From: a virus
Direction: 5' to 3' (one strand)
Virus record (IMG/VR): IMGVR_UViG_3300034168_000196
Location: 1 to 55,045 of that record
Length of the DNA: 55,045 nt
The notes beneath the pieces are model-generated. The model was not told the DNA's origin and ran no database searches. It was given only the letters and a program-made list of their open reading frames with translations. Each line of letters opens with the position of its first letter. Position 1 is the stretch's first letter. The position numbers were made by a program, and so were the translations under genes. Of the stretch, positions 1 to 54,436 are shown in pieces.

Positions 1-60
1 CAAACGTTTTCTAAGTTTAGGATCTAGTAATGCTAAAACATCTTCTACGCTAACTGACAT
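1..60 (-). CDS. Partial CDS at left edge, N-terminal 20 codons
   Basis: An ATG at 58-60 opens a frame that runs off the left edge of the window and encodes MSVSVEDVLALLDPKLRKRL and onward. A strong Shine-Dalgarno sequence (GGAGGATG) lies seven bases upstream, inside the last codons of the polymerase gene. The two genes overlap by 11 bases (50-60), as is usual in this tightly packed operon. Too little of the protein is visible to assign a family. Its position directly after the polymerase suggests a replication or recombination role, but that is inference. Confidence 0.6.
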   Translation of the reverse strand, partial: MSVSVEDVLALLDPKLRKRL

Positions 61-3000
61 GAACATCCTCCAAAGTTATAGTCCCATCTTTTGTTTTGCC
101 AAAATCAAATTTATAAATATTTCCTTCTTTAATATGCATATACGCTTTTGCAAAAGATGTTGGAAATACTGTTATAGAATGCAAATCTCTTGATGAATCT
201 GCTAATGTTAATAATGCCATCTTCTTTCCAGTCTTTGTTGTTCTTGGTTTAAAGGATACCACAAACATCTCTTCTTCTGCAAATGGCAATTGCTTATAAT
301 TTAAAAATCTAACCAACGCATTTGGCGAAGTTTTGATTTCGTCAACTGGGATAGCAGAAACAATTCTATTGTCAGATGCTAATAGTAAATATGTTTTACC
401 AATCTCAATAGTAGTATTCTCATCATCAAATATTCCAATTGATCCCGTTTTATCTAGCACATCAACACGAGACCATCCTGTTCCTCTTTTAATTGCTTTA
501 ATCATTCCCATTAAAATAAAAGATCCTTTTTCTTCAAAATCTTCTGTTGATTGAATAAAAGAATGATATTGTGTTGGCACTGTCATATTGAATTCTGGCA
601 GATTTAAATACTCATATAAATTCTCTTTAATTTCTTGATCATTTCTTGGGTTATCAGAAAAAGTAGCAGCACCAGTAATCCTTAGTGACTGCAAGGCTCT
701 ACTATTTACTCCATTTCCTTTTGTAAAGGTAAATTCTTCAAGTTGTTTGTATGAGGTAAATGGTCGTGCTTGGATATATCTTTCTGCAATTTTGTCAGAT
801 ATATATTTGACAGAACTAAGACCAAATCTAATACCTTTACCCTCAATTTTAAAATCCATATCCGAATCGTTAATGTGAGGTAATTTAATGCTAATGCCCA
901 TTCTTTTCGCCTCAATAAGATAATCAGTTCTTCCATCTTTATCCTTTTCATTTTTTAAAAGCGCAAACATAAATTCAAGGGGATAATAATACTTTAACCA
1001 AGCGGTCCAATACGAGACCGTAGAGTAAGCAACCGCATGAGACTTGTTGAACGAATACCCCGCATGTGCTTCAAAGTCATGCCATAAGTCCAAAGCAGAA
1101 TTAGGGCTAATGTACTTAGAAGCACCATTAACAAACTTTTCTTTAAACTGATCAAATTCTTTAGCATCTTTCTTCTTTCCAATAATTTTACGTACCTTAT
1201 CTGCTTCTGCCATTGTCATTCCACCAAGTTCAACACAGGCTTGCATTACCTGCTCTTGATATAAAACACAACCATATGTATCAATTGTAATGGGTTTCAT
1301 AACCTTATTTAAATAATCAATATTTTGCTTGCCATGCTTTCTTGCAATGTAGTCTTTGCCAATAGTGTTCATTGCTCCTGGACGAACAAGTGCATTAGAT
1401 GCTGCAAGTTCATTTAGATTCTTCACACCCATTTTAATTAAAAGGCTTGTGTATGGTGCAGCCTCACACTGAAAAACTCCTTTAGTGTATCCATCTGAAA
1501 TCATTTCATAAACTTTAGGGTCTTCTAAATCAATTTCTAATAAATTAATTTCTTTGTAATGATTCTTTTTAATTTCTGCAATAGCATCTTGAATAACACT
1601 AAGAGTTTTTAATCCAAGTGCGTCAATTTTGATTAAACCAATTCTTTCTGCTTCTTCCATATCAACACCAACCACTGGAATTCTTTCGTCAGATCCTGGA
1701 GATGATCGTGTTTCTAGGGGTGCATATCTAAAAATTGGGTTCTTGCTTGTTACAACTCCTGCAGCATGAATTCCAGTTCCACGAATACGTCCTCGTAACT
1801 GATCTCCATATACTTCTACTTCTGGATATTTTTCTCTAAACCATAAAGTTGTTTTTGAATAACAAAAATCTTCCCACGTGTCAACTTGCTTTAGCGCTTT
1901 GTTTACATCTGACAAAGGAATATTTAAAACTCTAGCAACATCTCTAACGACACCCTTGCCTTTAAACTCTAAGAAAGTAGCAATAGATGCAACGTGTCTA
2001 TATTGTCTAACTAAATAATCTTTTACTTCTTCACGACGAGTATCTTGAATGTCTGTGTCAATATCTGGAAAATCATTTCGTTCGGGATTAATAAATCGAA
2101 AAAACAAGAGTCCATATTTAATTGGATCAATGTCTGTAATTCCAAGTGCAAAGCAAACTAAAGATCCAGCAGAGGATCCACGACCTGGACCTACCATAAT
2201 TCCTTCCTTCTTTGCCCAAGCAATCATGCTTTGAACAACTAGAAAATATGGTGCAAATTTTTTATTCTTAACAATCTCTAACTCTTCACGTAATCTATTA
2301 ACATATTCTTCATTATCTTGCAGACCTTTAAGTGTCAAACCTTCAAACGCAATCTTTTCTAATTCACTATCTGGACTTTTATATTGAACTGGTAGTAGGT
2401 CAAGTCCATCTTGAATATCATAATCTTCTACTGTCTCTGCTAGTAGGAGTGTGTTTGAGTATATGTCTGATCTATCTATCCCCTGTTTTTCCATTGCTAA
2501 TTTAATTTCATCATATGACAGTAGATGTATATCAAATTTATTAAAAGTAATTTGACGATCTTCTCCGTACAGGTAGTCAAGTCTTTGCATCATATTGGTT
2601 TTCTTTTTAGACTTTTCATATGTTGCTTCTTTATTAACTTTGCCATGAGTATTCATCAATAACTTAAACTCTTGAATTTCTTTTTGTGAAGTATCTGAAT
2701 GGTGGCAATCTGGAGTTACAACAACCTTAATGTCAAATTCATCTGCAAGTTCAATTAAAGCCTTATTTATTTCTGGGGTATTGTGTGGCATTACTTCAAT
2801 ATAATAATCATTACCAAAATTATTCTTAAACCATTTAATATTTTTCTTTGCAATGGCAAATTCATTTTCTTCTAATGCTTTTACAATAACACTACTTGGA
2901 CATGCGGAAGTTACAATAATACCTTCACGATATTTTTCAAGTATCTCAAAATCAAATCTTGGCTTCTTAAAAAATCCATCAGTCCAGGAAACTTCACTAA

Positions 3001-3325
3001 TTTTATTTAAATTCTCTAAACCAACCTGATTCTTTGCTAGAAGAACAATGTGATTATAAACAAGATCTTGCTGACCTTCTCTTTCAGACTTATCTCGTGT
3101 ATCAGATATGTCTGCACACATATATCCTTCTAGCCCAAGAATTGGTTTAATACCTTTGGATTTTGCGGTACGATAAAACTCACGATGTCCTGAAAGTGTG
3201 CCGTGATCTGTTATTGCCAACGCTGGCATTTTAAGATCTACGGCACGACTTAGATACTCTTCTGGAGTTGCAATTCCATCAAACAGAGAATAGTGAGTGT
3301 GTACGTGCAGTCCTGCGTAGTTCAT
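50..3325 (-). CDS. dnaE: DNA polymerase III alpha subunit (DnaE-type), phage replicative polymerase
   Basis: This is a C-family replicative DNA polymerase. The N-terminus is a PHP domain (HVHTHYS at residues 7-13, then a DHGTLSG segment). The polymerase core carries the GPGRGSSAG motif and the catalytic aspartates of PDIDTD (about residues 420-425), followed by the tau- or helix-hairpin-helix-like region and a C-terminal OB-fold segment. At about 1,091 residues it is near the usual length for bacterial DnaE. I place the start at the ATG at 3323-3325, one base after the TAG of the ssDNA-binding protein gene. A longer reading begins at TTG at 3368-3370, inside the upstream gene. No clear Shine-Dalgarno sequence precedes the ATG, so translational coupling is likely. 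No clamp or proofreading subunit gene is visible, so the PHP domain or host factors may cover those roles. Confidence 0.95.
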   Translation of the reverse strand: MNYAGLHVHTHYSLFDGIATPEEYLSRAVDLKMPALAITDHGTLSGHREFYRTAKSKGIKPILGLEGYMCADISDTRDKSEREGQQDLVYNHIVLLAKNQVGLENLNKISEVSWTDGFFKKPRFDFEILEKYREGIIVTSACPSSVIVKALEENEFAIAKKNIKWFKNNFGNDYYIEVMPHNTPEINKALIELADEFDIKVVVTPDCHHSDTSQKEIQEFKLLMNTHGKVNKEATYEKSKKKTNMMQRLDYLYGEDRQITFNKFDIHLLSYDEIKLAMEKQGIDRSDIYSNTLLLAETVEDYDIQDGLDLLPVQYKSPDSELEKIAFEGLTLKGLQDNEEYVNRLREELEIVKNKKFAPYFLVVQSMIAWAKKEGIMVGPGRGSSAGSLVCFALGITDIDPIKYGLLFFRFINPERNDFPDIDTDIQDTRREEVKDYLVRQYRHVASIATFLEFKGKGVVRDVARVLNIPLSDVNKALKQVDTWEDFCYSKTTLWFREKYPEVEVYGDQLRGRIRGTGIHAAGVVTSKNPIFRYAPLETRSSPGSDERIPVVGVDMEEAERIGLIKIDALGLKTLSVIQDAIAEIKKNHYKEINLLEIDLEDPKVYEMISDGYTKGVFQCEAAPYTSLLIKMGVKNLNELAASNALVRPGAMNTIGKDYIARKHGKQNIDYLNKVMKPITIDTYGCVLYQEQVMQACVELGGMTMAEADKVRKIIGKKKDAKEFDQFKEKFVNGASKYISPNSALDLWHDFEAHAGYSFNKSHAVAYSTVSYWTAWLKYYYPLEFMFALLKNEKDKDGRTDYLIEAKRMGISIKLPHINDSDMDFKIEGKGIRFGLSSVKYISDKIAERYIQARPFTSYKQLEEFTFTKGNGVNSRALQSLRITGAATFSDNPRNDQEIKENLYEYLNLPEFNMTVPTQYHSFIQSTEDFEEKGSFILMGMIKAIKRGTGWSRVDVLDKTGSIGIFDDENTTIEIGKTYLLLASDNRIVSAIPVDEIKTSPNALVRFLNYKQLPFAEEEMFVVSFKPRTTKTGKKMALLTLADSSRDLHSITVFPTSFAKAYMHIKEGNIYKFDFGKTKDGTITLEDVHVS

Positions 3326-3326
3326 A

Positions 3327-3983
3327 CTACCAATCTGTATTGGTTGATGAAGTAGTTGATGGTGAGTCAAAGCCTAGATAAAAGGCTTCTTGTTCTGCAT
3401 AAGGAACTTTGCGAAGTGCAAGTTCTAGTTGGAATGGCTCAATACCAGTCCAGTCAAATGGTTCTTTATCTGGTGCTGCTGGAATCATTGTGTAATTTGT
3501 TTCAGTACCCTGACCATTACGCTTCATTTTCCAAACAACATTTGAAATGCTACCAGTCTCAAGTGCATATTCACGAATTGTATTAAAGGATGATTGCTTG
3601 CTAATTCCCATAGACCAAATGGCTACGTATGGTTTTTCAATTCCGTCATCAACTAATACGTTACAGTAAAAGCGGAGACGACCACGCCATCCAGCCTTTG
3701 GGTCTTTACGGTGCATTTCTTCTGCCCAGTCACGACCTTCTGTTTCCATAGTATCTACTGCTTTGCGTTTGTAATCTTTTGGATTTACGTGTTCTTTAAC
3801 AACTAAAGATAGACCACGAGATGCATTATAATTTGCAGAGTCTTCGTCTAGTTCTTCAATAAAGCGAATCTTTACTGATTGTCCATCAGCAAGTTTAAGC
3901 CATCTTACCTTTGGTGAGTTTTCATCGTATTTTGGTTTGTCGAGCAGGGCGTTGATGTTTTTTAATCCCTTTACTACGCTCAT
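3327..3983 (-). CDS. gp32-like single-stranded DNA-binding protein
   Basis: This 218-residue protein probably coats ssDNA during phage replication. The central region (about residues 90-150) has the pattern seen in gp32-like phage proteins: a basic RGRLRFYCNVLV strand, a hinge, then a YVAIWSMG strand and an S-x-x-N helix. The C-terminus is polar and rich in S, T and D, as in many SSB tails. I see no clear zinc-binding set like that of T4 gp32. The gene has a strong ribosome-binding site (AAAGGAGAAGG) and its own promoter at 4012-4040. It lies one base before the polymerase gene, which supports a replication role. The family call rests on pattern and context only. Confidence 0.62.
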   Translation of the reverse strand: MSVVKGLKNINALLDKPKYDENSPKVRWLKLADGQSVKIRFIEELDEDSANYNASRGLSLVVKEHVNPKDYKRKAVDTMETEGRDWAEEMHRKDPKAGWRGRLRFYCNVLVDDGIEKPYVAIWSMGISKQSSFNTIREYALETGSISNVVWKMKRNGQGTETNYTMIPAAPDKEPFDWTGIEPFQLELALRKVPYAEQEAFYLGFDSPSTTSSTNTDW

Positions 3984-4011
3984 ATCCTTCTCCTTTGTTT
4001 GTGTGTTATTT

Positions 4012-4040
4012 ATTTTATCATAGATAACAAGTTAATGCAA
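4012..4040 (-). promoter_or_regulatory. Sigma70-like promoter for the SSB-polymerase genes
   Basis: On the minus strand TTGCAT (4035-4040), a 17-base spacer and TAAAAT (4012-4017) form a promoter; the -10 is extended by TGA just upstream. The predicted start lies about 20 bases before the ribosome-binding region and ATG of the ssDNA-binding protein gene. It gives the SSB and polymerase genes their own transcription after the halogenase cassette. Confidence 0.6.
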
Positions 4041-5480
4041 CTATGATGATATTAAATGTAGAATCTCTTTGTGGTCTTTCCATTTAATAGATCTACTTTT
4101 AATAATATTTAGATATTTATAATATAGGATATCATCATACTTATCAATTACCCTATCATTTCTTAAGCCATTTCCATAATAAATCTTTATAAAATAATCA
4201 TTAAGGTATGATTTATCCTTATTTACAAAATCTGATAATTTTGGATTTGGAACTTCGCTTTCCATTATAGCAAGAAACTTTTCTATTTGTTTTGGCATTT
4301 TGTTATTCTTAGAAAAATTTTTCCAAAAATCATTATTAGTTTTATTTGTTACATAGTGTATGTATATTGCTGAAACAATGTCTTCTTCTATGTTTTTAGT
4401 GTAAAGATTTATTCTTTTAATAAATGCGTCTTTGTCTAAAAGATAGTCTTCAAAATTATCAGACACTTCTTTCATAACAGATATTACTGTCATAATTGCG
4501 CTTGCCTCTAGTGGTTCAAAAAAACTTCCAGATAGACCAATCGCTAAACAATTTCCAATAAAAGAATTTTTATAATATCCAGCATCATACTTTAATGATT
4601 TCACTGGTTCCCAATTTTTGTCAATCTTACTTTTCATTTCAAGAATTGCATCATCTTCTGAAATATAATTATTGTCAAAATTATACCCAACCCCATATCT
4701 ACTTGTTGTTGGAATTTCAAAAGACCATCCATAGTCTAGTGCAGTCATTTTACTGTATGGAGGTATATCTTTATCTATTTCTTTAGGCCCTACAATTGAT
4801 TGATTAATTGGCAAAGTATCATTTACACTTACCCATTTTTCTTTATAAAAATTTCCAATAACCAATCTGTTAAACCCAGAACAATCAAAAATAAAATCTG
4901 TTTCCATTTCACCATTAGATAATATTATTTTATTTATTATTTTATTTTCTACTTTAAAATCAAGAATTAAATCATCTATAATTTTAATATTTCTTTCTTG
5001 TGCTATTTTTTTAAAAAATTTAGAAGATAAAAATGCATCAAAGTGTATAGCGGATGGATACTCTTTTTCTTTTGAAATAATGGGTGGTACATTATTTTGT
5101 GTTGCAAAGAACCCTGTTTCGTCTAAATAATTTAATGTATTATCATTTTTTATAGCAGAAGATATAAGTTCTAAATAATATTTTGTATATACTTTATCCG
5201 CACTTCTAATTGGAATCCAAAAATCTATATTCTCATTATTCCATCCAGAAAACAAAGCGCCCATTTTTATAGTTCCATTGCTTGCTTTCATAAAACTAGA
5301 AAAATCAATATCTAATTGTTCAAGCATTGGCAAAAAGTTTCCAGAGGTTGCTTCACCTACTCCAATAATTCCAATATTTGAACTTTCAACTATTGTAATA
5401 TCATAGTGCGGAAACTTCTTTTGCATCATTAACGCTGTAATGCATCCAGAAGCCCCGCCACCTATAACAGTTATTTTCAA
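4041..5480 (-). CDS. FAD-dependent halogenase (tryptophan halogenase family)
   Basis: This 479-residue protein belongs to the flavin-dependent halogenase family, which uses FADH2, O2 and halide to make hypohalous acid and halogenate a substrate. Visible motifs: the nucleotide-binding G7-x-G9-x-x-G12, the GVGEAT segment (40-45), the likely catalytic lysine K72 in NGTIKMG, the FDCSGF segment, and EPLEAS (about 322-327) where PrnA has its catalytic glutamate. The signature W-x-W-x-I-P appears as W252-S-F-E-I-P, with Phe in place of the second Trp. The substrate cannot be read from sequence: it may be free tryptophan, a peptide, or another compound. No flavin reductase is nearby, so host FADH2 is probably used. 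The gene overlaps the AhpD-like gene by four bases (ATGA). The pair interrupts an otherwise pure replication operon. Confidence 0.88.
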   Translation of the reverse strand: MKITVIGGGASGCITALMMQKKFPHYDITIVESSNIGIIGVGEATSGNFLPMLEQLDIDFSSFMKASNGTIKMGALFSGWNNENIDFWIPIRSADKVYTKYYLELISSAIKNDNTLNYLDETGFFATQNNVPPIISKEKEYPSAIHFDAFLSSKFFKKIAQERNIKIIDDLILDFKVENKIINKIILSNGEMETDFIFDCSGFNRLVIGNFYKEKWVSVNDTLPINQSIVGPKEIDKDIPPYSKMTALDYGWSFEIPTTSRYGVGYNFDNNYISEDDAILEMKSKIDKNWEPVKSLKYDAGYYKNSFIGNCLAIGLSGSFFEPLEASAIMTVISVMKEVSDNFEDYLLDKDAFIKRINLYTKNIEEDIVSAIYIHYVTNKTNNDFWKNFSKNNKMPKQIEKFLAIMESEVPNPKLSDFVNKDKSYLNDYFIKIYYGNGLRNDRVIDKYDDILYYKYLNIIKSRSIKWKDHKEILHLISS

Positions 5481-6004
5481 GCAAACCTTCTGTCGTATCC
5501 CATAGAATTAATTTGTTCTGCAGCGGGAGCCCAACTTTCAGAATTTTCCTGAACTCCATGACCTTCAACAATTCTGTTAAAGAAATTAAATGCAGCACAA
5601 ACTGCAACAGCATCTTTAACTTGTTCTTGTGTAAATCCAGCATCGTAACATTCATCATATAATTTTTTAGTCATACTTGATGGATGTTTAGTTAGTTGTT
5701 CTACTAAATTAAAAATTGGGGTCAATCTATTAGGAACTGATTGAATTCCACTATCTAAAACCTCAATCTCAGCATTTATTGATTCTGCAAAAAGACGATG
5801 GGATCCATAGCAATACCTACATCCATTTAAATATGATGTATATGCTGCAACCATTTCTCTATCTTGTGGAGAAAGTGATGAAGCCTCTCGCAAAACTTCT
5901 TGTGCAAATGAAAGCATCATCATATATTTTTTTTGATTTTCCATAAAAACATCAACAATAGTTGCATTCTCTTTAAGTGAATCAAATACATTTTTTACAC
6001 TCAT
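5477..6004 (-). CDS. AhpD/carboxymuconolactone decarboxylase-like peroxidase-related protein
   Basis: The 175-residue protein has the full AhpD-type motif E-x11-C-x2-C-x3-H: E50, C62, C65 and H69. Such proteins are helical thiol-redox enzymes that reduce peroxides or peroxiredoxin partners. The start is the ATG at 6002-6004, preceded by GAGG at a good distance and lying two bases after the primase stop. The four-base overlap with the halogenase gene makes translational coupling likely. A plausible inference is that it removes peroxide released by uncoupled flavin turnover, or acts in the same pathway. Its partner reductant is unknown. Confidence 0.82.
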   Translation of the reverse strand: MSVKNVFDSLKENATIVDVFMENQKKYMMMLSFAQEVLREASSLSPQDREMVAAYTSYLNGCRYCYGSHRLFAESINAEIEVLDSGIQSVPNRLTPIFNLVEQLTKHPSSMTKKLYDECYDAGFTQEQVKDAVAVCAAFNFFNRIVEGHGVQENSESWAPAAEQINSMGYDRRFA

Positions 6005-6006
6005 GA

Positions 6007-6951
6007 CTACCTCAGCATTTCTAGTATAGAATTGTCAATTGAACTACTTAACTTAATTATATCAGAATCCTGCATATCTCCGATATCTTTATACTTGGTG
6101 TCTAGTTGTATTATTGATACCCTTGACTTTAACTTATCAATCATTTTTTTAGACATTGATTTTCCAGCCTCATCATTATCTGCTATTAAATAGATCTCAT
6201 TAAAGTATTTTTCTAATAACTCCACTTGATTTTTTGAAATAGTTGCTCCAAGAGTAGCCACTGCTGGCATGCCAACTTGATCTAATCTTATTGCATCAAA
6301 TGATGATTCAACAACATACACCTTATCATTTGCCTTTACTCTGTGCAAATTAAATAATGTTTTACTTTTTGGAAGTCCTGGAGTATTCTTAAAATCTTTT
6401 CCTTCAAGACTTCTGCCAACAAAACCAATTACCATTCCTTCTGGAGAGTGAACTGGAATTGTAACCATGTCCTGTTTCTCTGAATAACCTAGATTAAACT
6501 TATTAACTGATGACTTAGTTACTAGTCTGCCATCAAAGTATCTCATTGCTCTTGGTGATTCAAGCGCTTGTGAGTTCAATCTTTTAATAATAACTTCATC
6601 GTATTGTACAAATACAGGTGGGGTGTATAGTTGTTTTGCTACTATTTGAGTAATATCAGATTCTTGTTCTTTACTTTTTATGTACCGCAAACTTTCAAAA
6701 TATGATCTGTTGCTCATTTTCATTACTAATTCTTGTAGGTTAGCCACTTGTTGGCATCCAAAACAAAAGAACAATCCACTTTCTTTTGATACTTCTCCAG
6801 CAGGAGTCCTGTTGTTATTATGATATGGACAGAAAATTATGTAGTCGGAATCTACTTCTGATTGTATTGTGATTCCAGAGCCGATGAGAACTCTTTTAAT
6901 TTGGTCTTCTGTGTATATATCGGATTGTACCCGTCTGCTGCGATCATCCAT
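6007..6951 (-). CDS. dnaG: DNA primase (DnaG-type, CHC2 zinc finger plus TOPRIM)
   Basis: The 314-residue protein has a CHC2 zinc finger (C41-x2-H44-x18-C63-x2-C66) followed by a RNA-polymerase-like core. Its TOPRIM domain has the VYVVESSFDA glutamate strand and the IADNDEAG acidic motif. It makes RNA primers for the phage fork with the neighbouring helicase. It is much shorter than host DnaG (around 600 residues) and appears to lack the C-terminal helicase-binding domain. The ATG at 6949-6951 gives the 15-20 residues normally found before the zinc finger. That start lies inside the upstream gene, giving a 100-base overlap. I see no better in-frame start before the first zinc ligand. Confidence 0.93.
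   Translation of the reverse strand: MDDRSRRVQSDIYTEDQIKRVLIGSGITIQSEVDSDYIIFCPYHNNNRTPAGEVSKESGLFFCFGCQQVANLQELVMKMSNRSYFESLRYIKSKEQESDITQIVAKQLYTPPVFVQYDEVIIKRLNSQALESPRAMRYFDGRLVTKSSVNKFNLGYSEKQDMVTIPVHSPEGMVIGFVGRSLEGKDFKNTPGLPKSKTLFNLHRVKANDKVYVVESSFDAIRLDQVGMPAVATLGATISKNQVELLEKYFNEIYLIADNDEAGKSMSKKMIDKLKSRVSIIQLDTKYKDIGDMQDSDIIKLSSSIDNSILEMLR
6056..6064 (-). promoter_or_regulatory. Possible extended -10 promoter inside primase, upstream of AhpD-halogenase
   Basis: The minus strand reads TGATATAAT within the last codons of the primase gene, matching the extended -10 element found before many genes in this window. It lies about 50 bases upstream of the AhpD-like start. No -35 is apparent. 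It could drive the AhpD-halogenase cassette separately, but it is coding sequence and may be chance. Confidence 0.35.
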
Positions 6952-44259: not shown

Positions 44260-45006
44260 TCATTGATATTGTTTTTTTTTCCAAAACTTTAATCTATATC
44301 CATTTTCAAAGGTCGAGCGTAAGTTTTTTCTTTGTTCATATAATAATCCAGTGTCAAAATCTTCATTAATTTTAGATTGCCATTTTTCTCTTTTGAATGG
44401 AATAACTTGAACTATTGGAGTTCCCTGTTTAATAACTCCTTTATAATTTTTTTTAACAAAATAAGATAGGAGTCCATCTGAATAAAAATTATCGCTATCA
44501 ATTATTGCTGGTACTGCTTGAATTGGCAAATCATGATGCATTGGTGGCATAAACAAAGTACTATATCCTTTTGGGGTTGACACAAGCCAAATTGGATGAA
44601 TTCTTAATAAATTATCTAAATATAAATCTTTATCTAATGGGTATTCAGATATTTGTAATGTAGGGTGAACTCCTAAAATTGGTTGATTTAATTTTCTAAA
44701 TGGTTCGGGAATTTCAATTAATGTTTTATTATCTGTTGTGTCTATATAAATATCAACTGGTGCTAGTAAAAAATAACCACTTGTCATCCCATCAAAAATT
44801 GCTTGACATTTTTTTACAGTTAATTGCATTACTCCATTTACCAAACTCCTATCATTATTATAATGACTAGGTTGTTTTTTATACCATTCGGGAACATTAG
44901 CAATTGCTGGCTTTGGTTCTGGAAATATTTTTATCATTTTTGGATAGGCAAGATCAAATTGAATAATAGGATCTTTATTAAACCATTTTATAACATTTTT
45001 TATCAT
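44260..45006 (-). CDS. Conserved phage protein of unknown function (248 aa)
   Basis: A 248-residue soluble protein of a type I recall from T4-like aquatic phages, without a known role. Recognisable segments are VPEWYKKQPSHYN near residue 38, the LTVKKCQAIFDGMTSGY segment, STPKGYSTLFMPPMHHDLPI, and GTPIVQVIPFKREKW near 200. The repeated aromatic and Pro pattern suggests a binding fold. It starts the auxiliary island ahead of the oxygenases and reductase. The ATG sits six bases after an excellent promoter and has no Shine-Dalgarno sequence. Confidence 0.72.
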   Translation of the reverse strand: MIKNVIKWFNKDPIIQFDLAYPKMIKIFPEPKPAIANVPEWYKKQPSHYNNDRSLVNGVMQLTVKKCQAIFDGMTSGYFLLAPVDIYIDTTDNKTLIEIPEPFRKLNQPILGVHPTLQISEYPLDKDLYLDNLLRIHPIWLVSTPKGYSTLFMPPMHHDLPIQAVPAIIDSDNFYSDGLLSYFVKKNYKGVIKQGTPIVQVIPFKREKWQSKINEDFDTGLLYEQRKNLRSTFENGYRLKFWKKKQYQ

Positions 45007-45012
45007 GTAATA

Positions 45013-45041
45013 AGTATACTACATTTGATCTTTTGTGTCAA
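45013..45041 (-). promoter_or_regulatory. Near-consensus leaderless promoter, TTGACA-17-TATACT
   Basis: TTGACA (45036-45041), a 17-base spacer and TATACT (45013-45018) form the best promoter in the window. The ATG of the 248-residue protein follows exactly six bases after the -10, with no Shine-Dalgarno sequence. The promoter lies inside the last codons and stop of the Hint-containing gene. Confidence 0.8.
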
Positions 45042-46269
45042 AAACCAACATATTATCTGTAAAGAAGTTGTCGTATGGCTCACAGTTAATAGAATAAACT
45101 GTTTCTTCATAATCAATTGCCTCTACAGAAATGATTGCTTCAAAATCAAATGCTGCATATGAATAAACAAAATATGTAGAATCAATTTCATCTGCTCTTG
45201 TAAACTTAACAACATCATCTTTTTTGGTTAAAACATAATGTGAACCAGAATATAAATCTCCGTTAATAGAATAGATCTTATCTGTTTGATGAAGATTAAT
45301 GCTTACAATTTCAGTCTCTACAACATTGTCAGAATTTAAAACAATATCAGAACTTTGCCAAGATGTCCAATCTAATACATTTTCAGATGGAATATTCATT
45401 CCATAAAGTTTGTCTCCAACTTGTAGTTCAGATGCTGGTTTTCTTCCATCAACTGTTAAAACTCCTGTATTTCTGGCAACTGAATATTCAGAATAGGATG
45501 GACCAAATGGAGTAAAACCAAATGGAGTAAAACCAAATGGAGTAAAACCAAAGGGTGTAAAACCAAAAGGGGCAAATGGTGTAAAACCAAAAGGGGCAAA
45601 TGGTGTAAAGCCAAATGGAGTAAAACCAAATGGGGCAAAACTAAATGGGCTAGGTGTTGTTACTGTATTAGAGGATGCTGAGTTTGCTGAGTTTCCATTA
45701 GCATTTGTTGAAAATACTTGATAGGATTGTGATGTACCTGCAGTTTCTGCAACTAATTTTGTTGTAACTGCTGCTCCAACGGCATATGTTGGTCCATCAG
45801 AAGAAACTACAGTATTCCCAGTAATTGCACTTCCACCATTGGCATTAATTGTCCAGTTAACTGTATCTCCTTGTGGAGCATCTCCACTTGTTGTAGTAGT
45901 TCCAATTGTTGGTGCTTGAGGCACTGTTGTTGCAGTGATAGAAGCAGATGCACTTGATGCAGCAGATGATCCATAAGCACTATTTGCTACTACCGTAAAT
46001 GTATATGCTGTGTTTGATTGAAGTCCAGTAATTGTAAGTGGTGAACTAGCACCAGTGACTGTATAAGATCCAGGAGATGATGTAGCAGTATATCCAGTTA
46101 CTATAGCAGTATTTCCTGTAGTTGCTGGAGTAAAGGCAACAGTTGCAGCACCGTTATTATATGCTCGTCCAGTTCCAACATTGGTTGCAGAAACTGCAGT
46201 TGGTGCATCTGGAGCAATAAAGTTATCTTGTGCTGCTGACTTAATACCTTTTTTTCTACCTGCTGCCAT
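45019..46269 (-). CDS. Fibre-like protein: two FN3 domains, GFTPF repeat linker, C-terminal Hint domain
   Basis: A 416-residue protein in three parts. Residues 20-210 are two fibronectin III-like domains. Residues of about 213-258 are an F/G/T/P linker of GFTPF repeats, some with an APF insertion. Residues 263-410 form a Hint (hedgehog/intein) domain: S263-V-A-R-N-T-G-V-L-T-V-D-G (block A with Ser instead of Cys), H344 in SGSHYVLT (block B), and a final NFFTDNMLVFD in place of a His-Asn end. There is no homing endonuclease and almost no C-terminal extein. Ser1 could still allow an N-O acyl shift and self-cleavage; that is a prediction. Its last 520 bases match the gene at 52728-53612. Confidence 0.8.
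   Translation of the reverse strand: MAAGRKKGIKSAAQDNFIAPDAPTAVSATNVGTGRAYNNGAATVAFTPATTGNTAIVTGYTATSSPGSYTVTGASSPLTITGLQSNTAYTFTVVANSAYGSSAASSASASITATTVPQAPTIGTTTTSGDAPQGDTVNWTINANGGSAITGNTVVSSDGPTYAVGAAVTTKLVAETAGTSQSYQVFSTNANGNSANSASSNTVTTPSPFSFAPFGFTPFGFTPFAPFGFTPFAPFGFTPFGFTPFGFTPFGFTPFGPSYSEYSVARNTGVLTVDGRKPASELQVGDKLYGMNIPSENVLDWTSWQSSDIVLNSDNVVETEIVSINLHQTDKIYSINGDLYSGSHYVLTKKDDVVKFTRADEIDSTYFVYSYAAFDFEAIISVEAIDYEETVYSINCEPYDNFFTDNMLVFDTKDQM
45038..45557 (-). repeat. 520-base near-identical duplication, copy A (Hint cassette)
   Basis: This stretch matches 52753-53272 at a constant offset of 7,715 bases with only two differences that I found, and no gaps. It codes for the start of the GFTPF linker and almost all of the Hint domain. 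The 3' boundary falls within the -35 of the neighbouring promoter. Confidence 0.93.
45505..45640 (-). repeat. 15-base tandem repeat encoding GFTPF linker
   Basis: A run of variants of aaatggagtaaaacc (plus strand) codes for repeated G-F-T-P-F units, with shorter nine-base APF units between some. The array is longer here than in the twin gene near 53218-53300. Confidence 0.88.
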
Positions 46270-46292: not shown

Positions 46293-48563
46293 TTATGCTG
46301 ACAAATCTCCCATTAATACCCAAGAGTCTGTTGCTCTCTTAAATAAAGTTGCAGAAGACCATTGACCACGTAACTTAGCACCAGGAGTGAAGTTTAATGT
46401 TACTCCTACTGCTTTATCAAATGTAACTTGTCCTGCTCCAATTTGAAGGAAATCAATGGATGTTCCAACTGGGAATGCTGTTGTTGCATTTGTTGGAATT
46501 GTTATAGTAAATCCACTTACTTTATTACATTCTACTAAAGTATCTCTTAATGCTAAACCACCAGTAGATAAATTATATGTATCAGTTATTGTACTAATAC
46601 TTGTTTGTGATGGAACGCCTACCTTTGTTTGTGTGCCGTCAGAAAATGCTACACCAGTTGCTGATGCTGTTACAAGACCAGAGAATGTTGGATTATTAAT
46701 AACAGAAACTTCATTTCCAGTAACAGAGATATTTGTTCCTGCTGTAACTGTTCCTACACCAGCAAATTGACTAAATGCTATTGCATCAGTTCCAACTGTT
46801 CCTACTATATTTGTTTGTACCCAGCCAGTATTATCATTAACAGTACCACCAGTTACGAATACAAAGTCTCCACCATCAATTTCTGCTGGTGCATCAAAAT
46901 CTGTTGCTCTTGAAGGAGCACCTGATGCTGCTACTACATAAATACCATTTTCAGATGCAGTTGATTGATTCTTAACAAGAATACGATTGCCTGTAGCAAG
47001 AGTAACTCCATCAAGAGTATCTCCATTTTCTACCGCTGTTGCAAGAGTGATATTAGCAGTTGTTGCTGCTACTACTGAAGCATGTACGTGCAAACCTTCT
47101 GCAAGTGAATCAACATATTGCTTTGTTGCTGCTCCAAGTGCTGTTGCTGGATCTGCAGCAAGAACTACTGCACCAGTAAATGTTGCACCAGAAAGTGCGG
47201 CTTTGGCAGCAAGATCTGTTGTTAAATTTGCAATTTTAGACTGTGCAATTGCTGCTGATGTATTAATATCTCCATCAACAATTGTGTCATTAGCAATTTT
47301 TAGGGAAGTTACTGCTCCATCTGCAATCTTTGCTTCTGTAACTGCTAAACCACCAATTTCATTAGTTCCAACTGAATCATCAGACATCATTGATTGTGAA
47401 ATTGTGTTTGCAGGCAGTGTTACTGTTCCTGTAAATGTAGGAGAGGCTAGTGGTGCTTTAGCATCTAATTGTGTTTGAATAGCAGAGGTAACTCCATCAA
47501 CATATCCAATTTCAGTTGAAGTTACAGTTCCAATTGAAGTATTTACAGGAAGAACAACATCTCCAGTAAATGTCTTTGCTCCTCCAAGTGTTTGTGCACC
47601 TGATTTAAGCACAATGTCGGATGTATCTGAAATACCGTGAACCTCTGTAGTGTCTGTTCTATGTGTCTCAATATCTGCAGCAAGTGCTACAGTTCCACTT
47701 GCGTCTTGAAAAGTAATTGTACGATCTGCTGTAGGATCTGTTATTGTTAGACTGGTTTCAAAATCATTTTCTGTAGCACCTTCAAAAATAATGTTAGTAT
47801 TAAAAATTAAATCATTAATATTTCCTGTTGTAATTATAGTTCCTGTTGCATTTGGCAACATAATTGTGCGGTCTGCTGTGGGATCTGTTACTGAGAGGGT
47901 AGTTTCATACTCATCTGCTGTAGTACCTTCAAAAGTTAAACTACCAGTTAGGGTTCCACCTGCTAATGGAAGATAAGAAGATATTGTGGAAGATATTGTG
48001 GTGTCTACATATCCTTTAGTTGATGCATCTGACTCTACTGTTGGTGTGCCAAGATTTGTAATTTTATTACTTCCCATTGCAATTGCAGCCTGCATTGTTC
48101 CACCATCTGATTTAGATAATTTTGTAGCAAGTGCGGCTGTAATTGTTGATGCATATGATGCATTATCATCAAGAGCATCGGATAGTTCTCCTAATGTATT
48201 TAGGGCTGCTCCTGCTGTTCCTATAAGGTCAGTAATATCTGACATTAATGCGACTGTTCCTGTTGCATCTGGAAGAGTGATGGTCCGATCTGCCGTAGGG
48301 TCTACTACTGCTAGGGTGGTTTCAAAAGCATTTGCTGTAGCACCTTCAAATTTAATGTTTGAGCCAAATTGGGGGTTTACTGTACTGTCTGCGTCCATAA
48401 AATAATCAAGGCTTAGCCAGTGGTTGGTGCCATCACCAATTTTAAATTTATTAGTATCTGACTCGTAGCCAATTTCTCCGGCTGCAAGAATTGGGCCATT
48501 GCCACTATTGGTTGATATCCATTGGGCTGCAGTGCCTCGTCTCTGTTGCATTCTTGTTGCCAT
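46293..48563 (-). CDS. Tail fibre protein with Mtd-like N-terminus (756 aa)
   Basis: A 756-residue fibre. The first 50 residues (MQQRRGTAAQW, GEIGYESDTNKFKIGDG) match the N-terminal domain of the major tropism determinant and related fibres, which attaches the protein to the tail. Three repeats of the FEGAT, TDPTADRTITLP and ATGTVAL type follow. Next come a YVDGVTSAIQTQLDAK segment and an ILVKNQSTASENGIYVV domain. The protein ends in a shared C-terminal module finishing in GDLSA. No reverse transcriptase or variable-repeat pair is visible. An AGGGGGA site and a TGTTATAAT promoter precede it. Confidence 0.82.
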   Translation of the reverse strand: MATRMQQRRGTAAQWISTNSGNGPILAAGEIGYESDTNKFKIGDGTNHWLSLDYFMDADSTVNPQFGSNIKFEGATANAFETTLAVVDPTADRTITLPDATGTVALMSDITDLIGTAGAALNTLGELSDALDDNASYASTITAALATKLSKSDGGTMQAAIAMGSNKITNLGTPTVESDASTKGYVDTTISSTISSYLPLAGGTLTGSLTFEGTTADEYETTLSVTDPTADRTIMLPNATGTIITTGNINDLIFNTNIIFEGATENDFETSLTITDPTADRTITFQDASGTVALAADIETHRTDTTEVHGISDTSDIVLKSGAQTLGGAKTFTGDVVLPVNTSIGTVTSTEIGYVDGVTSAIQTQLDAKAPLASPTFTGTVTLPANTISQSMMSDDSVGTNEIGGLAVTEAKIADGAVTSLKIANDTIVDGDINTSAAIAQSKIANLTTDLAAKAALSGATFTGAVVLAADPATALGAATKQYVDSLAEGLHVHASVVAATTANITLATAVENGDTLDGVTLATGNRILVKNQSTASENGIYVVAASGAPSRATDFDAPAEIDGGDFVFVTGGTVNDNTGWVQTNIVGTVGTDAIAFSQFAGVGTVTAGTNISVTGNEVSVINNPTFSGLVTASATGVAFSDGTQTKVGVPSQTSISTITDTYNLSTGGLALRDTLVECNKVSGFTITIPTNATTAFPVGTSIDFLQIGAGQVTFDKAVGVTLNFTPGAKLRGQWSSATLFKRATDSWVLMGDLSA

Positions 48564-52185: not shown

Positions 52186-52731
52186 ATGACAACTAATAAG
52201 ATAGTGATTGGAATACTCGCAGCAGTAACTGGAATTGCTTTGTTCTCTAATTCTAGTGCTAATGCTGAAAATAACTTGAGTAGTACCGTGTCAAAAAGTG
52301 AAACCCAAACCGCTGAGGCGGTTTTTTCAGTTTCTAAAGAAGAAAATAATAAAACTAAGAAAAAGTACAAATATGGAACCCCTCTTGAAAAAGATGAACT
52401 AATTAAAATATTAAAGTCTGTAGGGTTTGAAGGCTATGCACTAAAAGTTGCTTGGGCAACAGTAATGAAAGAATCTATGGGTACTCCTAACTCTTGGAAT
52501 CCAAATAGAAACACTGGAGATAATTCTTATGGCCTATTCCAAATCAATATGCTAGGATCAATGGGTCAAGATCGACGGGATAAATTTAATTTAGAATCCA
52601 ATGAAGATCTATTCGATCCCGTTAAAAATGCAGAGATTGCTTATCATATGAGTGATGGTGGTAAAGACTGGTCTGCCTGGAAGGGTATTACTTGGAAGAC
52701 TAAAGAGTGGCTTGCAAGGTATCCTGATTAA
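52186..52731 (+). CDS. Exported lysozyme/lytic transglycosylase-like protein
   Basis: A 181-residue peptidoglycan hydrolase of the SLT/lysozyme-like fold. Residues 1-27 are a signal peptide (basic start, hydrophobic IVIGILAAVTGIALF, likely cut after ANA). Residues 30-65 are a polar linker. The catalytic domain has E96 (VMKES) and GLFQIN (116-121), as in transglycosylase and goose-type lysozyme families, and ends about residue 180. It is the only plus-strand gene, with its own promoter and a strong AAGGAGG site. It may serve as an exported endolysin, or as a wall-modifying accessory gene. No holin was recognised nearby. Its stop overlaps the stop of the Hint gene tail to tail (TTAA). Confidence 0.85.
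   Translation: MTTNKIVIGILAAVTGIALFSNSSANAENNLSSTVSKSETQTAEAVFSVSKEENNKTKKKYKYGTPLEKDELIKILKSVGFEGYALKVAWATVMKESMGTPNSWNPNRNTGDNSYGLFQINMLGSMGQDRRDKFNLESNEDLFDPVKNAEIAYHMSDGGKDWSAWKGITWKTKEWLARYPD
52307..52328 (+). terminator. Terminator-like hairpin inside the lysozyme coding sequence
   Basis: A perfect seven-base stem (AAACCGC with GCGGTTT) and a four-base loop are followed by a run that makes six Ts in total. It lies in the codons of the linker (residues 41-48), before the catalytic domain. Unless it is suppressed, plus-strand transcription could stop here. On the minus strand the U-run is weaker (TTTGGGTTT), but it might also limit readthrough from the Hint gene. Confidence 0.6.
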
Positions 52732-53612
52732 TTATTTGTTTTATCTTTACTATCAAAAACCAACATATTATCTGTAAAGAAGTTGTCGTATGGCTCACAG
52801 TTAATAGAATAAACTGTTTCTTCATAATCAATTGCCTCTACAGAAATGATTGCTTCAAAATCAAATGCTGCATATGAATAAACAAAATATGTAGAATCAA
52901 TTTCATCTGCTCTTGTAAACTTAACAACATCATCTTTTTTGGTTAAAACATAATGTGAACCAGAATATAAATCTCCGTTAATAGAATAGATCTTATCTGT
53001 TTGATGAAGATTAATGCTTACAATTTCAGTCTCTACAACATTGTCAGAATTTAAAACAATATCAGAACTTTGCCAAGATGTCCAATCTAATACATTTTCA
53101 GATGGAATATTCATTCCATAAAGTTTGTCTCCAACTTGTAGTTCAGATGCTGGTTTTCTTCCATCAACTGTTAAAACTCCTGTATTTCTAGCAACTGAAT
53201 ATTCAGAATAGGATGGACCAAATGGAGTAAAACCAAATGGAGTAAAACTAAATGGAGTAAAACCAAAGGGTGCAAAAGGTGTAAAACCAAATGGTGCAGG
53301 GGATGCAGCAGGAGTAGCCGAATTGCTTGAAGCAGATTCTAATGATGTAGCAACACCGTTTCCTAATTTTACTTTAAATGTATAGGCTGTTCCATTTGAT
53401 AAACCACTAACAGTTATTGGAGAGGTTGAAGATGTTCCAGTTATACTAGATGGAGTTGAAGTTGCAGTATAAGTTGTTCCCGTTGGTTTTCCTAAATATG
53501 AAGGGGCTGTAAAAGTAATTGATGCACTAGCATCTCCTGCTGTTGCGGTTCCAATTGTTGGAATTCCTGGTTGTATTCCTCCACTACCTGAAGATATTGG
53601 TGGTAATGGCAT
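52728..53612 (-). CDS. Fibre-like protein: one FN3 domain, short GFTPF linker, C-terminal Hint domain
   Basis: A 294-residue protein. I place the start at the ATG at 53610-53612 (MPLPPIS), forming TAATG with the preceding gene; a TTG 30 bases upstream is less likely. Residues 10-95 are fibronectin III-like. Residues of about 100-135 are a GFTPF/APF linker. Residues 139-287 are the Hint domain, nearly identical to that of the gene at 45019-46269, with Ser139 at the Cys1 position and an FD end. The C-terminal tail (SKDKTNN) differs from the twin. The gene is convergent with the lysozyme-like gene. Confidence 0.8.
   Translation of the reverse strand: MPLPPISSGSGGIQPGIPTIGTATAGDASASITFTAPSYLGKPTGTTYTATSTPSSITGTSSTSPITVSGLSNGTAYTFKVKLGNGVATSLESASSNSATPAASPAPFGFTPFAPFGFTPFSFTPFGFTPFGPSYSEYSVARNTGVLTVDGRKPASELQVGDKLYGMNIPSENVLDWTSWQSSDIVLNSDNVVETEIVSINLHQTDKIYSINGDLYSGSHYVLTKKDDVVKFTRADEIDSTYFVYSYAAFDFEAIISVEAIDYEETVYSINCEPYDNFFTDNMLVFDSKDKTNN
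52753..53272 (-). repeat. 520-base near-identical duplication, copy B (Hint cassette)
   Basis: The partner of 45038-45557, with two differences seen: one near 53190, and one in the linker near 53249. The sequence diverges beyond both ends, where each gene has its own N-terminal domains and C-terminal tail. Confidence 0.93.
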
Positions 53613-54436
53613 TATGCACTCAAGTCGCCAATTGCAATCCAAGTATTGGTTGCTCGTTTAATTAGTGTGCAGGACGAATACTGTGCTCTTAATTTTGCTG
53701 CATTTGAAGAAATTTGAGGTGTACAATTTAATGTAACTCCAGCAGAAACTGTTACTGTTGTTGCTCCAGTTCCAGTTTGAATAATTGTAATCTGTGAACC
53801 AGTTGCAAAAGCCTGAGTTGAATTAGTTGGAATGGTAACTGTATTTGCAGTTGATGTTAAATTCATTTCAATAATTTTATATCCATCTGACAAAACCAAT
53901 GTATGATCTGCTGTTTTTTCTAAAATAGTAAAATTTAATGCAGACGTGCTCTCTGCAACTGTTTTTACTGCAGTTGGTGTTGCTGCTTTAACTGATGAGG
54001 TTTCTGATATTGAATCACTTAGTTGAACACTTCCCACAACAGATGTGGTTGCTGCAGTTACCGCAGGTGGTGCCCATTTAACTCCAAGTGTTTCTGCTGT
54101 ATCTGCTGTTAAAAGATATCCGTTACTTCCTCCTGGAATTGATAAATTATCTAATGCGTTGTTACCAGATCCAACAAAAAGATCTCCTTTTGCGTCCATA
54201 ACAGATTCTAAAACAACTGCGCTAGTGTCTGTAGAAATTTCAGCGATTGATGCTTCAATTTGTTTTAAATAATATGCAATACCTGCAGTTGGGGCTACGC
54301 CAGTTGCAATGGGAGTGTCTTGTCCATAATGATAATTTCTTAATGCAATCTGAATATCTGCAGCGTCAGTTAGCGCTGGCATTTTTGCAAGGGGATAGTG
54401 ATGAGTTTGATCAGTTCCAATGTTTCCGGCAGCCAT
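53612..54436 (-). CDS. Fibre-like virion protein (274 aa)
   Basis: A 274-residue protein with a helical N-terminus, a DAKGDLFVGSGNNALDNLSIPGG segment of the fibre type (about 105-127, shared in form with the 581-residue fibre) and a beta-rich C-terminus. The last 75 residues (TIPTNSTQAF, VTLNCTP, KLRAQYSS, TLIKRATNTW, GDLSA) match the C-terminal module of the 756-residue fibre. It is probably part of a fibre complex with the Hint gene that follows. The ATG lies six bases after TGGTATAAT with no Shine-Dalgarno sequence. Confidence 0.75.
   Translation of the reverse strand: MAAGNIGTDQTHHYPLAKMPALTDAADIQIALRNYHYGQDTPIATGVAPTAGIAYYLKQIEASIAEISTDTSAVVLESVMDAKGDLFVGSGNNALDNLSIPGGSNGYLLTADTAETLGVKWAPPAVTAATTSVVGSVQLSDSISETSSVKAATPTAVKTVAESTSALNFTILEKTADHTLVLSDGYKIIEMNLTSTANTVTIPTNSTQAFATGSQITIIQTGTGATTVTVSAGVTLNCTPQISSNAAKLRAQYSSCTLIKRATNTWIAIGDLSA

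Follow-up and report, generated by a model that had tools for sequence, protein, structure and literature searches.

Why does a phage carry a flavin-dependent halogenase and an AhpD-like protein among its replication genes, and do the two act together? The locus that raises this question lies in a 55-kb virus record; the window is the whole 55,045-nucleotide stretch analysed. We infer an actinobacterial host from its polymerase, 54% identical to the polymerases of BillNye and similar Streptomyces phages, and from its single-strand DNA-binding protein (SSB), whose only matches are in phages of Streptomyces and Rhodococcus. Relatives in lake phage and MAG data point to a freshwater habitat. The window is probably a fragment, because the longest close relative (the record holding L017) reaches 113 kb. 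Elsewhere in the window, positions 44263–44976 encode a phrog_7084/DUF6065-like protein of a kind that these phages often carry, with as many as 8 copies in one record. The proteins at 45019–46269 and 52728–53642 each match an fn3 domain and show a weak C-terminal intein-splicing match that falls under its cutoff, and the protein at 46293–48563 resembles the major tropism determinant at its N-terminus (Mtd_N match).

Two overlapping genes in a replication operon

The minus strand reads, in order, a DnaB-like helicase, a small ORF, primase, the AhpD/CMD-family protein (AHPD), the halogenase (HAL), SSB and a DnaE-type polymerase. HAL (4041–5480; 479 codons, TTG start) and AHPD (5477–6004; 175 codons) are both intact. 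The first-pass annotation had described them as fused by a four-base overlap and placed between primase and SSB, and both points are borne out: read from the sequence, the AHPD stop and the HAL start share TTGA at 5477–5480, an overlap of genes rather than a fusion of proteins, which likely couples their translation. Primase (6007–6951; Zn_ribbon_DnaG, Toprim and phrog_47) lies 2 nt upstream of AHPD as the left flank of the cargo slot, and SSB (3327–3983; phrog_9721, 1.6e-42), the right flank, lies 57 nt downstream of HAL, ahead of the polymerase (DNA pol III; 50–3370).

A possible promoter before the pair and a clear one after it had also been proposed, and only the latter stands. Consensus matches bearing on the upstream promoter are not above chance (32, against 28.7 ± 6.5 in shuffles). 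The 57-nt gap between HAL and SSB holds TTGCAT-17-TAAAAT with an extended -10 (4012–4040, minus strand), reading into SSB and the polymerase. As a lone pattern match this is weak, with 4 occurrences in the window against 0.87 expected, but promoter-like sequences recur at the same position in six other cassettes (L001, L005, L004, L033, L302 and L342), those of L302 and L342 with near-consensus TTGACA boxes. Slots that are empty or that hold the beta or gamma alleles described below are without this promoter-bearing gap before SSB. Cassettes of the promoter-bearing kind would thus carry their own promoter, keeping SSB and polymerase expressed.

HAL matches PF04820 over the whole protein (1.2e-74; 252 bits against a curated cutoff of 21) and phrog_2928 (2e-90). 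Residue alignment places GGGASG at the GxGxxG motif, K72 at the position of PrnA K79 and E322 at that of PrnA E346; this catalytic Lys and Glu are present in 54 of 55 aligned halogenases. The WxWxIP motif, a signature rather than a catalytic residue, reads W252-S-F-E-I-P, with Phe for the second Trp and the remainder intact, a variant found in 7 of the 55. The best Foldseek matches of the AF2 model (pLDDT 87.4) are BrvH, MibH and PyrH (E about 1e-37). For the loop by which free-tryptophan halogenases grip the amino and carboxyl ends of Trp (RebH Y454, Y455, E461 and F465), the C-terminal region of HAL gave no sequence alignment to PrnA; fold rank favours BrvH. That enzyme is without these loop residues, and its open site accepts indole, not tryptophan (PMC5945002). 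Family and residues together predict halogenation activity for HAL.

AHPD matches the CMD domain PF02627 above its cutoff (3.3e-9; 37.1 bits against 23) and NCBIfam peroxid_rel (TIGR01926) below it (3e-20; 72.7 bits against 81.8), with no match in PHROG. Its motif E50-x11-C62-xx-C65-xxx-H69 is complete and occurs in 14 of 14 phage relatives, and its AF2 model (pLDDT 85.8) has VIA Z scores of 17.4 to 3c1l and 16.7 to 6k40 AhpD. Family membership and the complete E-x11-CxxC-x3-H motif are consistent with peroxide handling. Neither a flavin reductase nor an AhpC-type reductant gene was found among those window proteins that were scanned. The nearest cellular relatives, in freshwater Actinomycetota MAGs, are about 50% identical and sit beside sugar-catabolism genes without a halogenase; descent from a bacterial AHPD–HAL pair was considered and dropped, PF04820 hits there being N-terminal FAD-binding matches only. 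In other phages, AHPD neighbourhoods include P450 and 2OG-oxygenase genes. One phage contig, for example, has an AHPD relative near a cytochrome P450 gene (L193, 5959–8201).

Purifying selection acts on HAL, AHPD and primase, less strongly on the first two. Estimates of dN/dS are about 0.22–0.29 for halogenases of allele alpha (that of the window), about 0.09–0.25 for those of allele beta, 0.15–0.29 for AHPD and, for comparison, 0.01–0.11 for primase. The low values for both genes, and the recurrence of the pair as an identical copy in a second metagenome (L006), show that it is not a product of chance.

A mostly empty cargo slot between primase and SSB

Viral contigs anchored on primase and SSB gave 124 distinct loci among the matches listed; these derive from the best 80 matches per scan, with some loci coming from HAL and AHPD queries, and the counts are not population frequencies. 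Within this set the slot was empty in 100, with a primase–SSB gap of 21–54 nt. The filled slots held AHPD–HAL (10), a third gene, TM (8), TM–HAL (2), TM–AHPD (2), AHPD (1) or AHPD–TM (1), and a later find, L342, holds AHPD–TM–HAL. TM encodes a Trp-rich, hydrophobic protein of about 95 residues, predicted to be a membrane protein, with no match in Pfam, the PDB or named phages. Filled slots are dispersed across the primase and SSB tree. These comparisons make the primase–SSB junction of these actinophages a hotspot for cargo, with most slots empty. The genes resemble phage cargo, or morons, in being present or absent among close relatives and in having a predicted promoter at the end of several cassettes.

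Halogenases are swapped between near-identical phages

The closest clade, with primases 96–100% identical, contains three halogenase alleles plus the empty state, a pattern absent from the first-pass annotation. Allele alpha occurs in the window and L006, beta in L010–L012, L015–L017, L022, L094, L174 and L175, and gamma in L013 and L014. The slot is empty in the sisters L021, L023 and L024 and in the more distant L025 and L044, so that cargo comes and goes at a single site. The halogenases are only 34–36% (alpha–beta) or 27% (alpha–gamma) identical.

L174 makes the exchange most visible. It matches the window at 99–100% nucleotide identity over positions 1000–6250 of the reverse complement, more than 5 kb, until a mosaic zone begins in primase. 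Beyond that point AHPD is 89–93% identical, HAL is about 34% identical in amino acids with no relation at the DNA level, and SSB returns to 95–99%. This mosaic indicates that homologous recombination within the neighbouring genes replaced AHPD–HAL. As the swap occupies the same slot, HAL appears to be the variable effector, and its helpers the more constant part. The beta and gamma genes begin within the 3′ end of AHPD, with a 17-nt overlap read directly at the junctions; an AHPD–halogenase overlap is kept with every allele. Together these patterns suggest an exchangeable chemical-modification module at the slot. An assembly artefact was judged unlikely: each allele is found in more than one metagenome with its junctions built alike, and alpha is repeated in L006.

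The gamma protein (L013, 5777–7321; L014, 6509–8053) belongs to PF04820 but has R and D where other members have the catalytic Lys and Glu, and possibly represents a repurposed halogenase. An E-to-D mutant of such an enzyme retained low but observable activity (PMC8407142). With R and D at these positions, slot occupants need not all be ordinary halogenases.

HAL, AHPD, TM and the other alleles had no match among the PADLOC-DB models of anti-phage defence, and a defence-system reading by way of known models was dropped.

AHPD and TM as partners of phage halogenases

The first-pass annotation had read the AHPD pairing as a working cassette, which could halogenate a host metabolite, peptide or defence signal, and proposed looking for the same adjacency across phage genomes. 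The recurrence part of this holds. Within the slot, AHPD precedes halogenases of three unrelated lineages; in other uncultured phages it is convergent with a halogenase (L183, L185, L187 and L191/L192), lies 1.9 kb upstream of one (L179) or ends a HAL–TM–AHPD run (L334). The pairing is nevertheless not general. Of 78 halogenase loci sampled from uncultured phages without regard to partners, 28 had TM and 3 had AHPD within 3 kb, leaving 75 without AHPD; the 70 named-phage records with a halogenase had no AHPD, and TM was likewise detected in no named phage. Being this rare, AHPD is an optional helper, neither required nor the defining partner.

TM is the commoner accessory partner by these counts, usually in a predicted overlapping HAL–TM operon. 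Outside the slot, HAL accompanies TM at 41 of 44 loci, in most cases with overlapping genes and in several separate halogenase lineages. In all, TM was seen at L252 (5001–5285), L004 (2695–2985) and about 80 further loci, where it usually overlaps the 3′ end of the halogenase gene.

Whole records show the same association. Among 40 flank-found records of at least 40 kb, HAL was present in 4 of 4 with TM or AHPD and in 1 of 36 without (Fisher 5e-5), and where long records have TM or AHPD with no HAL beside it, HAL lay elsewhere in 6 of 6 cases against the same 1 of 36 (Fisher 1e-6), although both P values overstate independence because the contigs share ancestry. The phrog_7084/DUF6065 neighbours were dropped as candidate module parts, since they occur in 20 of 38 long records, many without HAL.

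The 113-kb record of L017 has a second HAL–TM pair (L371, 1271–5545; 20.5–26.5 kb of the record); a 2OG-Fe(II) oxygenase and a luciferase-like/2OG protein come next, and the region looks like a small tailoring cluster. With such a pair in a close relative, the halogenation module may be larger than is visible in the window.

A proposed module and competing explanations

Drawing on the comparisons of composition, exchange, constraint and catalytic residues, we read the pair as one configuration of an exchangeable halogenation module in which HAL halogenates, AHPD scavenges peroxide or acts on the product, and TM helps, an interpretation to which we give an even chance. As the comparisons show, the module in freshwater actinophages comprises a variable flavin-dependent halogenase with AHPD, TM or both as optional helpers, and other uncultured aquatic phages carry it with the same helpers. 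In the actinophages it sits in the replication operon at the primase–SSB hotspot, often closes with a promoter of its own that would sustain SSB and polymerase, and comes, goes and changes through homologous recombination in the replication genes on either side. Its biology, from halogenation to AHPD coupling and the role of TM, we infer as follows. During infection, HAL would take FADH2 from the host and, with O2 and halide, halogenate an aromatic or indolic group. The molecule that bears this group, made by host or phage, would be bound in an open active site of the BrvH/VirX1 type. Each allele would have its own substrates, and for this reason the halogenase would change while AHPD stays; the pattern of exchange speaks for substrates or targets that differ from host to host. 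Translated together with HAL, AHPD would use its Cys-x-x-Cys/His centre to clear the H2O2 or organic peroxides that uncoupled flavin chemistry releases, or might instead act reductively on the halogenated product. We favour scavenging, since a single AHPD lineage is found with widely differing halogenases; catalase was added to BrvH assays against peroxide intermediates (PMC5945002). TM may handle product or substrate at the membrane.

The same exchange could be taken further, to a rapidly exchanged modification system in which interchangeable halogenases, and halogenase-like enzymes such as gamma, are variable effectors directed at a target that itself diversifies. That target might be a competing phage, a surface component or a defence molecule of the host, and AHPD and TM would be shared helpers. 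We put this forward only tentatively and think it rather unlikely; were it true, recombination through replication genes would change the chemistry of a phage in a single step. AHPD might instead tailor the product, removing or exchanging a halogen or decarboxylating what HAL makes, so that the two enzymes take consecutive steps on one substrate. Bmp8, an AhpD-fold CMD protein encoded with halogenases and a P450, debrominates or decarboxylates their product (PMC7918430), the AHPD model matches it (Z 14.7 over 157 residues, rmsd 4.0), and the P450 and 2OG-oxygenase neighbours elsewhere fit such a role. By sequence, however, AHPD is nearer to AhpD/antioxidant proteins (6k40, 4e-19; 3c1l, 2e-18) than to Bmp8 (E 0.11), its Cys-x-x-Cys is complete, and the company of halogenases only about 30% identical speaks against tight substrate matching, so we hold a tailoring role to be somewhat improbable.

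Two further accounts would dispense with the partnership or with the variable target. If HAL and AHPD were independent cargo in a shared hotspot, AHPD countering host oxidative stress and HAL doing an unrelated job, a slot that holds nearly every combination, including AHPD and TM without HAL, would be expected, and the sugar-catabolism setting of the closest cellular AHPD relatives would fit. Yet AHPD is found near halogenases outside the slot, HAL turns up elsewhere in the long TM or AHPD records that have none adjacent, and the gene overlap is retained through each swap; we consider independence unlikely. A plain auxiliary metabolic gene, whose product would adjust host metabolism by halogenating indole or free tryptophan, as has been proposed for cyanophages, accords with the family name and fold of HAL and with the role discussed for cyanophage halogenases (PMC10452541). 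HAL is short, however, at 479 aa, its best fold match does not take tryptophan, and a single fixed metabolite leaves the swap of such divergent enzymes in otherwise identical phages unexplained, which makes this account very doubtful. We therefore retain the exchangeable halogenation module as our working interpretation.

Comparison with known systems

Phage halogenases are already known from VirX1 and cyanophages, altered host metabolites being only a proposed role in nature. VirX1 has an open active site and broad substrates (PMC8407142). Its characterisation is in vitro, on non-natural substrates. In the open-licence literature we found no description of an AHPD or TM partnership or of halogenase exchange at one slot, and no paper that joins 'flavin-dependent halogenase' with 'AhpD'. 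Like HAL, VirX1 and the cyanophage enzymes (phrog_2928; PDB 6qgm) are phage-encoded PF04820 proteins with the catalytic Lys and Glu; they are only 20–33% identical to it, the named phages have no detectable AHPD or TM gene, and the papers found describe no exchange slot. HAL shares its fold and catalytic dyad with BrvH (PDB 6frl) and the tryptophan halogenases PrnA and PyrH, but is 21–24% identical to them in fold alignments and differs in the Phe of its WxWxIP motif.

AHPD has the fold (Z 16–17), CMD domain and Glu/CxxC/His motif of AhpD and peroxidase-related proteins (6k40, 3c1l; TIGR01926), whereas its subfamily, under the TIGR01926 cutoff, is so far mainly phage and has no AhpC partner among the window proteins scanned. 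The nearest precedent for the pair is the bmp cluster, in which the halogenases Bmp2 and Bmp5 are encoded together with the AhpD-fold protein Bmp8 and the P450 Bmp7 (PMC7918430). That cluster is bacterial and biosynthetic, with ACP, adenylation and P450 genes, and Bmp8 is a remote relative of AHPD at 12–14% identity. Set beside these systems, two recurring small partners and the replacement of halogenases in near-identical phages offer testable clues to function, and TM provides an unannotated marker for locating more phage halogenase operons.
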